Shown piece after piece: positions 61,391 to 64,000 of a stretch of 64,000 nucleotides of DNA. Location: assembly GCF_033547075.1 (NCBI RefSeq), contig NZ_CP137891.1, positions 620,001-684,000 on the forward strand, given 5' to 3'. The position numbers and the translations under genes are program-made. Positions within the stretch are counted from its first letter, which is position 1; each line of letters starts with the position of its first letter. Origin of the DNA: Flavobacterium ardleyense (lineage in GTDB: Bacteria; Bacteroidota; Bacteroidia; Flavobacteriales; Flavobacteriaceae). The notes under the pieces are model-generated. The model was not told the DNA's origin. It did no database searches and saw nothing but the letters and a program-made list of their open reading frames with translations.

Positions 61391-61837
61391 TTAACAAGTA
61401 TATATTTTAATTACTTCGATATCCACTTCGTAGTCAACAAAATCCTCATTTTCCTTTGCTTCCCAGTTTTCCCAACAATCTGCGAGAGCGCCTACTATTT
61501 CAATTTTTGTTTTATCGAATTTCATTTGTTTAACTGGATAATCCATATAGTCATGTCTATAAATCAATTTACCTTTATTTGGCACTTTGAAATAACCATA
61601 TTTTTTAATGATTTTGTAATCATCCTTTACTTGATAAAGCTTTAGTTCCCACTCGCCACTACATTCTAAATTGTACAAAATCTTTGGCAATCGCAAAATC
61701 AAATCAGCGTAGTTTGTAAATAATACATTCTGTACATTTACATAACCATCTATATTATTGCCTAGCAACAAAAACGATAAATCTTGCTGAATAGTTCTTT
61801 TGTAACTTTTTTCGGAGAAAGATATTTTATTTGACAT
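61391..61837 (-). CDS. Hypothetical protein, divergent from the HTH gene
   Basis: 148 residues from the ATG at 61837 (MSNKISFSEKSYKRTIQQDL); the longer frame extends through the palindromic operator and is rejected. No signal peptide, mixed alpha/beta, rich in Lys, Tyr and Asp (KLYQVKDDYKIIKKYGYFKV). No family recognised. It begins 6 bp from the palindrome at 61844-61875, so it is likely controlled together with the island genes on the plus strand. Confidence 0.65.
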   Translation of the reverse strand: MSNKISFSEKSYKRTIQQDLSFLLLGNNIDGYVNVQNVLFTNYADLILRLPKILYNLECSGEWELKLYQVKDDYKIIKKYGYFKVPNKGKLIYRHDYMDYPVKQMKFDKTKIEIVGALADCWENWEAKENEDFVDYEVDIEVIKIYTC

Positions 61838-61843
61838 AACTAA

Positions 61844-61875
61844 ATATTTTATGTTACAAATGTAACATAAAATAT
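61844..61875. promoter_or_regulatory. Perfect 15-bp inverted repeat, probable operator
   Basis: ATATTTTATGTTACA (61844-61858), 2-bp spacer, TGTAACATAAAATAT (61861-61875). It lies in the 56-bp gap between two divergent starts (61837 minus, 61894 plus) and must overlap both promoters. This symmetric site suits a dimeric HTH repressor; the small HTH protein encoded next to it is a candidate. Confidence 0.8.
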
Positions 61876-61893
61876 ATAACATCATAGTAATCA

Positions 61894-62082
61894 ATGCTTA
61901 TAAATACTGAAGAGTTATTAACCATAACAAATTTTGCGTCATCAAAGCAGTTAAGTCGGCAGCATGTATACCGACTTATTGAAAGTAATGAGATTACGAA
62001 AGTAGAAATTGACGGGGTGTTATTTATACTGCAAGACGAGAAAGCGAAAAACTTTTTAAGAAAGAGGAAGAGGAGTGTTTAG
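61894..62082 (+). CDS. Small HTH (excisionase/MerR-like) DNA-binding protein
   Basis: 62 residues: ITNFASSKQLSRQHVYRLIE is a winged-helix/MerR-type HTH (~11-30), followed by a beta pair EITKVEIDGVLFILQD and a basic tail KRKRSV. Size and pattern match the helix-turn-helix domain family of excisionases and small regulators. It is the first plus-strand gene after the palindrome and overlaps the next frame by 1 bp. Confidence 0.82.
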   Translation: MLINTEELLTITNFASSKQLSRQHVYRLIESNEITKVEIDGVLFILQDEKAKNFLRKRKRSV

Positions 62083-62378
62083 TGTTTTTAGAAATTGTAA
62101 ATCTTTCAAATAACCAAGGTCAAAAAACAACATTTCGTTTTAAAATAGATTTTTTTAGGGAGGGGATCTCATTAAGACGACGAGATTTTCAGTACCAATA
62201 TGAAATGATGTTACCATCAATATCAAAATATCTAGATAACATCATCACTTACAGGATTTTAAAACTAATTTTCGTTTTAAATAGAATCAAAAATTCACTT
62301 TTAAATAATTTGATATTATATAAACATTCACTCAATTCAAATTGGATGAATGTATCCAATTGCATATCTTGCACCTAA
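62082..62378 (+). CDS. Possible small island protein (98 residues)
   Basis: A GTG-started frame that overlaps the HTH gene's TAG by one base (TAGTG). The first ~55 residues look protein-like (FLEIVNLSNNQGQKTTFRFK, DFFREGISLRRRDFQYQYEM); the last ~40 are low-complexity AT-rich coding. It could be a real coupled gene, or a truncated one. No family recognised. Confidence 0.4.
   Translation: MFLEIVNLSNNQGQKTTFRFKIDFFREGISLRRRDFQYQYEMMLPSISKYLDNIITYRILKLIFVLNRIKNSLLNNLILYKHSLNSNWMNVSNCISCT
62340..62361. other. Hairpin upstream of the DUF4007 gene
   Basis: AATTGGAT / ATCCAATT with a 6-nt loop, 31 bp before the DUF4007 ATG. No U-tract. It could be an mRNA leader stem or an operator half-site pair. 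Confidence 0.45.
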
Positions 62379-62392
62379 AAAATAGCATTTAA

Positions 62393-63277
62393 ATGATTTT
62401 AAAATTTTCCGGTCATGACACCTTTCATTGTAGACAACAATGGCTTTCTAAAGGATTGCAATTTATTGAGAATCATGGATATAACTCTTTTAATAACACC
62501 GAAGTCGCAATTTCAAATTTAGGAGTCGGTAAAAATATGGTGCAGTCAATTCAGCATTGGTTGCGAGCATTTGACTTGATTAGTGAAAATCACGAAATTA
62601 AAGAGTTTGCAAGAGATATGTTTTTTGAACCAAAATCTTACGATCCTTATTTAGAAGATGAAGGAAGTTTATGGCTATTGCAATATAAAATCTGCAAGAC
62701 ACAATATGCAAGCATCTATAATATAATTTTTGCCGAATATTTTAATGACAAATTGAATCTAGAATTTTCTGAATTTCAAATCATTCAGTTTATTGAAAGA
62801 AAGATACGTGATAAAAGTGAAAGAGAAGTTAGTAAAAACACGCTTAGCTCCGATTTTAAAGCTTTTATAAAGCTATACACAACTCCTACAAAAACTTTAA
62901 AAACTATAGAGGACGATTTCAATTCTCCTCTATTGGAACTTAATTTAATATCTCAATTATCTGCAACAGATGGTAGTGAAAAGCAGTTTAGATTGAATAA
63001 GGAAGATCGATCAAATATTCCTACAGCAATTTTTGCTTATTGTTTACTTGATCAATTTGATGGTAAAGAAATAGTAAATTACGACGAAGTTAGAAGGACT
63101 CTTGGAGCATACTTCTGCTTATCAAATGAATCCTTAGATAATCTAATTGATTTACTATCTACAGTTTATAGCGAATTCGTCTATAAAAACGATGCAGGTA
63201 TAAGGCAAATTCAGATCAAAGGATTAGATCAAAATTTTAAAAACGATTTATTGCAAGCATATTATGAAAAACAATAG
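62393..63277 (+). CDS. DUF4007 family protein (defence-associated)
   Basis: 294 residues, full length for the family. Diagnostic segments are FSGHDTFHCRQQWLSKGLQF (~5-24), VAISNLGVGKNMVQSIQHWL (~38-57) and YDPYLEDEGSLWLLQYKICK (~83-102); the C-terminal ~100 residues look like a winged-helix region (NYDEVRRTLGAYFCLSNESL). DUF4007 has no proven biochemistry; from memory, members occur beside DndC-like PAPS-reductase genes and ATPases in DNA-phosphorothioation or BREX-like islands. Its end overlaps the ATPase start by 14 bp. Confidence 0.85.
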   Translation: MILKFSGHDTFHCRQQWLSKGLQFIENHGYNSFNNTEVAISNLGVGKNMVQSIQHWLRAFDLISENHEIKEFARDMFFEPKSYDPYLEDEGSLWLLQYKICKTQYASIYNIIFAEYFNDKLNLEFSEFQIIQFIERKIRDKSEREVSKNTLSSDFKAFIKLYTTPTKTLKTIEDDFNSPLLELNLISQLSATDGSEKQFRLNKEDRSNIPTAIFAYCLLDQFDGKEIVNYDEVRRTLGAYFCLSNESLDNLIDLLSTVYSEFVYKNDAGIRQIQIKGLDQNFKNDLLQAYYEKQ

Positions 63278-64000
63278 TATCTCAACCAATATATTACGAG
63301 ACGAATCAAAGGATTTGAATTATGTTGTTACTCCAAACGCAATTCAGATTTATAATCGCATTTTTAAGACTTCATCAAGTAGCAATAAATCCTTTACTCT
63401 TATTGGAAATTACGGTACAGGGAAGTCCACATTTTTATGGGCGCTTGAAAAAAACCTACAACGACAAAAACTTTATTTTAGCAGCGACGCTAATTTTGAA
63501 GATAAAGAGTACGAGTTCATAAAATTGATTGGTGAAAATAATTCTCTACGTAATTCACTTTCTAAACTTCTATCGTCCAAAATATTATCTGCTTCAGAAA
63601 TTATAATTGAGTTAGAAAGTAGAAGAAAAAAGGCAGCGAAGAAAAATAAGGGAGTAGTTTTAATAATAGACGAATTTGGCAAGTTCTTAGAGTACATTAA
63701 TAAAACTAATGATGCCGACGACTTATATTTATTGCAGCTAATTTCAGAATGGGCGAATGACGATGAAAAAGAAGCTTACTTTATAATTTCCTTGCATCAA
63801 AGCTTTGTTTCATACGGTAGCAGCTTAGACGTTTCAGATAAACTTGAATGGGAAAAAATTAAAGGCCGTTTCGTTGAATTATTATTTAACGAACCCATTG
63901 AGCAGTTACTATTTTTTGCGTCTAAAAAATTGGAAGCGCATGTTTTACCTAACAAAAACTTTAATCGATTCAATCAATTAAACAAGCTAATTAAAAATAA
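63264..64000 (+). CDS. P-loop ATPase, partial (cut by the window end)
   Basis: 245 codons seen from the ATG at 63264 (MKNNSISTNILRDESKDLNY), frame open to the window end. Walker A is GNYGTGKST (Gly48-Thr56, Lys54) and Walker B is GVVLIIDEFGKFLE (Asp136, Glu137); a sensor-like SLHQSF follows at ~178. The LIIDEFGK and SLHQS pattern resembles large BrxC/PglY-type or defence AAA ATPases, which often exceed 1000 residues. It overlaps the DUF4007 gene by 14 bp in another frame, so the two are translationally coupled. Confidence 0.85.
   Translation, partial: MKNNSISTNILRDESKDLNYVVTPNAIQIYNRIFKTSSSSNKSFTLIGNYGTGKSTFLWALEKNLQRQKLYFSSDANFEDKEYEFIKLIGENNSLRNSLSKLLSSKILSASEIIIELESRRKKAAKKNKGVVLIIDEFGKFLEYINKTNDADDLYLLQLISEWANDDEKEAYFIISLHQSFVSYGSSLDVSDKLEWEKIKGRFVELLFNEPIEQLLFFASKKLEAHVLPNKNFNRFNQLNKLIKN

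Follow-up and report, generated by a model that had tools for sequence, protein, structure and literature searches.

The 64,000-bp window analysed here, bases 620001-684000 of the 3.19-Mb single-contig genome of Flavobacterium ardleyense (NZ_CP137891.1), ends inside a genomic island which probably is a phosphorothioation-based restriction-modification system built from two modules, a writer of the Ssp type and an effector of the Pbe type. As a phosphorothioate (PT) defence the island is new by combination, because the published partners of SspBCD are SspE and SspFGH (PMC8092258) and those of Pbe are Dnd writers or, close to some of its solitary copies, methylases (PMC6459918; PMC10853773). The reading is based on direct observation of the gene content, gene order and homology of the island, of the recurrence of the pairing and of the absence of the island from this site in relatives.

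A first-pass annotation of the window had noted four frames at its right end (167 aa on the minus strand, and on the plus strand 62 aa, a DUF4007 protein of 294 aa and an ATPase open at the window end), and had proposed the start of a multi-gene, probably anti-phage island of Dnd-like, BREX-like or new type. The frames are as described, and the 12 kb past the window end hold the rest of the island with the Ssp and Pbe genes, the defensive role being predicted from the gene families. As to its type, the island is neither plain Dnd nor BREX, and "new" holds in the sense of an Ssp writer joined to a Pbe effector. The features are listed in Table 1, in which L002 denotes genome bases 679001-699000 (L002 position + 59000 gives the window position; L002:5001 onward lies past the window end).

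Table 1. Features of the island, from left to right.
Feature	Position	Strand	Basis and remarks
Divergent orphan protein	61391..61837	-	148 aa from internal ATG at 61837; outermost left island gene
Palindrome, near-perfect	61841..61878	.	38 bp; divergent promoter; operator-like
62-aa putative helix-turn-helix (HTH) regulator	61894..62082	+	sub-threshold HTH matches
SspB (DUF4007), DNA-binding subunit of Ssp writer	62393..63277	+	294 aa; PF13182 E 1.8e-69
SspC, AAA+ ATPase	63264..64000 in window; L002:4264-7494 whole	+	1076 aa; PADLOC SspC 1215.6 bits
SspD, PAPS-reductase type	L002:7491-8618	+	PADLOC SspD E 5e-83; Pfam PAPS reductase
GIY-YIG-like protein	L002:8590-9123	+	177 aa; GLY and YIG motifs
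DndB-family protein	L002:9113-10375	+	PADLOC DndB E 6e-17; Pfam DndB E 7e-27; DGQHR motif
133-aa protein (p133), like the sulfur-binding domain (SBD)	L002:10546-10947	-	profile comparison; last gene of effector operon
PbeD-like protein	L002:10944-11438	-	164 aa; position and one weak homologue
PbeC, ABC ATPase	L002:11440-13626	-	PADLOC PbeC E 8.5e-12; CYVC hook
71-aa protein in PbeB place	L002:13628-13843	-	assigned by position and size
PbeA helicase part (superfamily 2, SF2)	L002:13845-15314	-	PADLOC PbeA; Pfam ResIII
PbeA HKD nuclease part	L002:15471-16046	-	PADLOC PbeA
SspA, cysteine desulfurase	L002:16063-17172	-	PADLOC E 1e-148; Pfam class V aminotransferase

The writer consists of SspB, SspC and SspD together with SspA, and all four are present, with their order and overlaps. 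The DUF4007 protein, which had been annotated as lacking an assigned activity, is SspB (PADLOC SspB E 5e-101), and DUF4007 is thus not an orphan domain, since the solved SspB structures 6juf and 6lb9 are matched at E 3e-14. Its frame overlaps that of SspC by exactly 14 bp, and SspC keeps the Walker A (GNYGTGKS) and Walker B (VLIIDE) motifs, all as the first-pass annotation had it. The PAPS reductase of the island matches SspD far better than DndC (PADLOC E 5e-83 vs E 2e-4). Solved-structure searches with SspD and SspC gave nothing informative. In the plus-strand run that extends from sspB to dndB neighbouring genes overlap by 4-29 bp, and the minus-strand run sspA-pbeA-71-aa gene-pbeC-pbeD-133-aa gene is spaced by -4 to +16 bp; given this tight packing the island is likely organised as two convergent operons.

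The effector shows the gene order expected of PbeABCD, which is A, a small B, the ABC ATPase C and the DndE-like D, and catalytic motifs are preserved across the island families. The two pieces of PbeA match the PADLOC PbeA family at E 8e-134 and 4e-86. The single BLAST match of the 71-aa protein covers 20 residues of its positional counterpart in locus L073, and the PbeD-like protein has a single same-place homologue (26% identity, E 2e-4); a solved-structure search with the latter gave nothing informative. PbeC is read as an ABC ATPase with a cysteine hook in preference to an SMC protein (PMC10853773; own CYVC motif).

The state of the strain's own effector weighs against a working restriction-modification system: PbeA has an in-frame stop at residue 192, between nuclease and helicase, and PbeC, the 71-aa gene and PbeD are very divergent. 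The two parts of PbeA share one frame, which is open on either side of the stop (the frame was compared with the stop shown as X and no base restored), and 44 of the 53 residues past the stop are identical to L085. Intact copies exist in relatives, the stop being unique to this copy among the ten strong PbeA matches of the phylum sample described below. The protein is also a mosaic, with residues 1-300 being 80-94% identical to L085 and the remainder 25-54%. Given the stop and the mosaic structure, restriction may be off in this strain while marking goes on, or the halves may work as separate proteins. A natural two-gene PbeA was considered and rejected, as a hidden Markov model (HMM) of the HKD part finds no separate HKD gene in loci with a helicase-only PbeA. 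PbeA proteins without HKD part, of 455-506 aa, occur in cyanobacteria and in the Bacillota loci L115 and L130, and one of 477 aa in the Bacteroidota Ssp locus L071. The cyanobacterial ones (462-506 aa) are in L110-L114, L116, L118, L119, L123, L124 and L126, where the same HMM likewise gave no separate HKD gene. Two genomes of the same genus have a helicase-only PbeA of about 470 aa (G687:C1:5342253-5343668 and G694:C11:576405-577802), one of them with two in-frame stops in the matched stretch. Since no separate HKD genes are found and, of the ten strong PbeA of the phylum sample, this strain's alone has a stop, a recent interruption or a sequencing error is more likely than a functional split.

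These same data allow a different account of the island, which we regard as possible though doubtful: the writer would be functional and Pbe a decaying remnant, PT marks would now serve regulation or redox functions, and "defence island" would describe the past. The stop, the long branch of the PbeA helicase part (1.38 vs a median of 0.35 in the 68-row tree described below) and the divergence of PbeC and the 71-aa gene all fit decay, yet PbeA is open on both sides of the stop, with its catalytic motifs and the residues shared with L085 kept, and the other effector frames are open too. In the archaeal system low-level resistance persists in cells without pbeA (PMC6459918), so that PbeBCD may still act even with PbeA interrupted.

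The pairing of Ssp and Pbe genes recurs well beyond this genome. Across 395 sampled genomes of the phylum, PbeA (E<=1e-80, a cut which leaves out 29 of 39 genomes, those with weaker matches) is found in 10, SspC (E<=1e-40) in 22 and both in 7, and in all seven the two genes lie less than 20 kb apart; the co-occurrence expected by chance is 0.56 (P 6.5e-8, uncorrected for relatedness among genomes). A wider scan of genome contigs with a PbeA alignment yielded at least 196 relatives and was evaluated for 80 loci, of which the 57 with a PbeA score of at least 150 were counted and 23 more distant helicases left out; many of these loci come from metagenome-assembled genomes (MAGs). Among these 57 loci, 21 adjoin SspB/SspC/SspD-type genes, 12 DndC/DndD and 24, some of them on short contigs, neither, and for the 34 loci of at least 18 kb the corresponding numbers are 12, 9 and 13. 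SspD is matched in ten of the 21 ssp-linked loci, L092 has SspB and an SspC fragment, and in the other ten SspB and/or SspC is present but no strong match to SspD. These last ten belong to clostridia, other Bacillota, one fusobacterium and one methanogen; the sulfur enzyme is BrxP-like in both of the two that were checked, which are both clostridial, and another, L107, has a short SspC tail and SspA at the contig end. Within the genus, 13 other genomes have a helicase match, and in the 11 loci examined ssp genes are present in three (plus G218) and dnd genes in four.

The ssp-linked PbeA are found in Bacteroidota, Acidobacteriota, Pseudomonadota, Bacillota, Fusobacteriota and Methanobacteriota, several of them from MAGs. 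In a PbeA tree of 68 rows (quick search, SH-aLRT support; L141 out; L002, L066-L074, L165 and L168 added) the ssp label changes five times, three of these changes being forced by starred branches, and at least four changes are needed if no rows but ssp and dnd are counted. The co-occurrence could also be due to hot spots of insertion common to both modules, and this counts against the two modules forming one system, as does the MAG origin of many of the scanned loci. That writer and effector are two independent systems merely sharing an island is nevertheless improbable in our view. The two modules do differ in history, the HKD part being 92% identical to L085 and SspC 69%, with 84% and 36% towards L066, and Pbe is also found with Dnd or with neither writer. 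However, the genes form one co-directional run in L091 (sspB-sspC-sspD-pbeA-small-pbeC-pbeD) and in L087 (sspB-C-D-GIY-dndB-sspA-pbeA-small-pbeC-pbeD), with gene gaps of -11 to +19 bp, sspA lies inside the effector operon here and in L085, L087, L088 and L094, and the pairing recurs in the six phyla named above. Two IMG/VR contigs that are classed as viral, L165 and L166, have sspBCD with pbeA and pbeC in one run and may represent either carriage by a mobile element or host DNA.

The last gene of the effector operon encodes p133, which we assign from profile comparisons to the DNA sulfur-binding domain and which is a possible stand-alone reader of PT. Among the 395 phylum genomes it occurs in three, all bearing the Ssp-Pbe island, and the six copies known in total (these three, two from further genomes of the genus and that of L085) are all in Ssp-Pbe loci. 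The four that are fully mapped adjoin pbeD, and those of L294 and L296 lie on the side of pbeC. An SBD profile was built from six N-terminal domains of SBD-HNH enzymes, of which the E. coli member is annotated as "phosphorothioated DNA-binding restriction endonuclease". Comparison of the p133 family with this profile by hhalign gave a probability of 86.6% over 121 columns (E 5e-7); under default settings the probability was 89% over 92 columns (score 42.4, E 2e-6). As controls, 199 column-shuffled profiles scored up to 22.6 and the reversed one 13.9, and for 11 unrelated families the probability was at most 1.5%. An SBD-only HMM recovers four of the six copies at E<1e-3 among 8074 open reading frames. 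The positions of the pocket His, Pro and Ala of ScoMcrA are invariant in all six; the pocket residues published for that enzyme are His116, Arg117 and Pro165 (PMC6224610). Relative to the SBD-HNH enzymes (ScoMcrA and its E. coli homologue), whose sulfur-binding domain the p133 family matches, p133 differs in standing alone without a nuclease, in lying in an effector operon with a writer gene and in having Gln at the place of Arg117.

Several results speak against p133 as part of the system in this role. Most of the Ssp-Pbe loci seen do not have p133, so that the pairing does not depend on it. Among the same 8074 frames the p133 of this strain and that of L296 are missed by the SBD-only HMM. 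The pocket Arg/Lys of most SBDs is Gln in all six copies, and the substitution R117Q weakened binding by ScoMcrA (PMC6224610). An AlphaFold2 model of the L085 protein, made without alignment, is poor (pLDDT 59.6) and finds no fold match with Foldseek at E<=0.001. It is accordingly conceivable, though unlikely, that p133 does not read PT and is an unrelated DNA-binding or adaptor protein of the Pbe complex. The replacement of the phosphorothioate-contacting residue, the miss by the HMM and the poor model would fit such a protein, as would the search of solved structures, where the best informative match is an SBD (8h0l) at the non-significant E values of 1.1 and 0.69, aligned in register at the G-x-x-PH motif. 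Assignment to the SBD is favoured by the profile comparison, which holds against its controls, by the four homologues matched by the HMM, by the three invariant pocket positions and by an SBD-HNH homologue, L310, which likewise carries Gln at the Arg/Lys position. Among viral contigs and plasmids p133 was sought and none was found. Cyanobacterial Dnd-Pbe loci contain a stand-alone SBD-like gene of 130 aa in one case (L114:8197-8589) and an SBD-HNH gene in another (L105:16759-17730), so that a possible PT reader beside Pbe is not confined to this clade.

Between writer and effector the island carries a variable set of genes. In this strain, as in L067, L085 and L087, the junction is occupied by the genes for a GIY-YIG-like and a DndB protein. 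In GIY-YIG nucleases conserved Arg, Glu and Asn residues accompany the GIY and YIG motifs, and DndB is a repressor of dnd genes. The 177-aa protein itself is without Pfam match, a 29%-identical homologue matches GIY-YIG weakly (E 0.018), and a solved-structure search with it was uninformative. Elsewhere, L069 carries a DEDDh exonuclease at this place, L068 a protein matched twice by HATPase, L094 a kinase together with a GmrSD_N protein, L066 and L085 a deoxyribosyltransferase-like protein and L088 an AAA-like protein under the Pfam cut-off; several other proteins of the slot have no family match, and in L091 the slot is empty. The writer-effector junction thus takes up varying genes, some of which belong to types familiar from defence systems.

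The island is inserted between wzx and atpG, which are 15,727 bp apart in this genome. The AT-rich composition pointed out in the first-pass annotation is evident from a GC content of 0.296, compared to 0.366 for the window up to 61390, 0.389 for wzx and 0.382 for atpG. For 15 of 18 relatives of the same genus the site could be compared (G408, G410 and G412, with wzx and atpG on different contigs, were left out), and the gap between the two genes ranges from 148 bp (G396) and 301 bp (G399) up to 17,238 bp (G398). Judged from the listed frames of at least 90 aa, no gap contains a frame of the size of SspC, the largest being 780 aa, and so all 15 relatives are without the island at this site. 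The larger gaps carry other genes, showing that the site takes other cargo too; the inserts of G398 (L265, 17.2 kb) and G402 (L266, 8.1 kb) appear by eye to contain transporter-like and uncharacterised genes. A housekeeping locus is ruled out by the empty sites, and the DNA downstream of the window holds more than housekeeping genes. No exact direct or inverted repeat of at least 12 nt is common to the two flanks. About 150 bp near the 3' end of wzx (L002 ~310-475) have many matches in the genome and in relatives at ~70-80% identity and constitute a dispersed repeat, and a 513-aa transposase-like frame, recognised by eye, lies ~19 kb right of the island (L003:16110-17651; C1:715110-716651).

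At its left edge the island begins with the divergent orphan gene, whose minus-strand frame (61391-61894) would give 167 aa from a TTG at 61894, the ATG at 61837 being the likelier start. This protein has no match in Pfam, PADLOC, NCBIfam or PHROGs and is present in 1 of the 395 phylum genomes, its own. The small HTH protein of the first-pass annotation exists as a 62-aa frame, but its HTH matches are all below threshold (HTH_17 E 0.043; phage HTH/excisionase families E 0.03-0.08). Family searches give no support to a 98-aa frame between this gene and the DUF4007 gene. The palindrome between the divergent gene and the HTH gene has 18-nt arms that are 94% complementary, with perfect 12-nt arms at 61847-61872, and its 26-mer core, picked after being seen, has a single occurrence in the window and none in 100 shuffles. 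It fits an operator for the 62-aa protein, and a repressor belonging to the island itself, as proposed in the first-pass annotation, is made more plausible by this palindrome in the divergent promoter.

Among known systems, the island shares its writer genes sspA, B, C and D with SspABCD-SspE and SspABCD-SspFGH, as judged by PADLOC and by the solved relatives of SspB, and has pbeABCD in the place of the effector. A PADLOC scan of all island frames but those of 98 and 71 aa (13 of 15) gave no match to SspE, SspF, SspG or SspH, the presence of SspFGH models in the PADLOC release being unchecked. Genome-wide, SspE-type genes were sought by the GmrSD_N family only. Two GmrSD_N genes lie elsewhere in the genome (C1:1732922-1733536, L306, and C1:2668018-2668422, L307; 597 and 349 aa); their best PADLOC matches are HEC-05 and NsnA, and the first matches SspE weakly (E 2.6e-4) while the second has no SspE match. 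With DndCDEA-PbeABCD of Haloterrigena jeotgali A29 (PMC6459918) the island has in common the PbeA with HKD and SF2 parts, the small gene, the ABC ATPase and the PbeD-like gene, in the same order. It differs in having an SspABCD writer instead of DndCDE, in the additional SBD-like gene and DndB, and in the hook of PbeC, which is CxxC and not CxC, as in the other Bacteroidota copies examined except L070. The published pairing of Pbe with dndCD does not apply here, as the island has no DndD match, and plain Dnd was rejected for this reason and for its SspD-like PAPS reductase. Type 4 BREX (BrxP, BrxC, DUF4007, PglZ and BrxL; PMC12839542) has in common with the island DUF4007, an SspC/BrxC-like ATPase, a PAPS reductase and a cysteine desulfurase. 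BREX was considered for the resemblance of SspC to BrxC and for the DUF4007, and dropped, as no PglZ or BrxL match was found in the 10 island proteins scanned. The downstream DNA does hold genes of the kinds that the first-pass annotation proposed to search for: SspD of PAPS-reductase type, a cysteine desulfurase, a protein with SF2 helicase and HKD nuclease parts, an ABC ATPase and DndB.

In the literature a review distinguishes three restriction branches, dndFGH/sspFGH, sspE and pbeABCD, describes modification and restriction clusters as sometimes exchangeable and, in its available text, names no Ssp-Pbe pair (PMC12707154); a research paper gives the same three branches (PMC9239217), and the available parts of PMC11931770 and PMC13251355 make no mention of Pbe. 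Across titles and the first parts of abstracts of the papers listed in full-text searches, with supplementary tables and subscription papers outside, no description of the Ssp-Pbe pairing was found, and a table somewhere may include it. As PADLOC has separate family names for its two halves, the composite can easily be overlooked.

The chemistry, sensing, PT marking and anti-phage defence that we propose for the island are predicted from its gene families. The roles of SspA to SspD comprise sulfur transfer, DNA nicking and ATP use: SspA would take sulfur from cysteine, SspD would activate it, and SspB with SspC (DNA nicking, ATPase) would introduce it into the backbone of DNA where a short motif occurs. 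PbeA, the small protein in PbeB place, PbeC and PbeD would attack or stall incoming unmarked DNA, and p133, by binding PT DNA, would signal to the effector which DNA is self. Expression of the writer is probably limited by DndB, and the 62-aa HTH protein is the probable repressor of the writer operon, acting at the palindrome. In the cargo slot, the GIY-YIG-like gene would add an extra effector.

A wider proposal is to us finely balanced: PbeABCD may be a general plug-in effector for Dnd writers, for Ssp writers in several phyla and probably for BrxP-SspB-SspC writers in clostridia and relatives, and one among the missing partners of the many sspBCD clusters that lack sspE and sspFGH, the flavobacteria having gained a stand-alone SBD subunit which senses the mark and the junction being a slot which exchanges effectors. 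Of 2,678 sspBCD clusters ~84% had neither sspE nor sspFGH nearby by single BLAST queries, 196, 199 and 36 having one or both (PMC8092258); for some of those with neither, the recurrent Ssp-Pbe pairing supplies a candidate effector. The strain represents a natural case in which the writer is kept and an effector gene is interrupted. The use of PT by Pbe was left to speculation by its discoverers (PMC6459918), and the small SBD-like gene in the pbe operon makes it directly testable; if the assignment is true, the stand-alone SBD subunit would answer the question of which part of Pbe senses PT.

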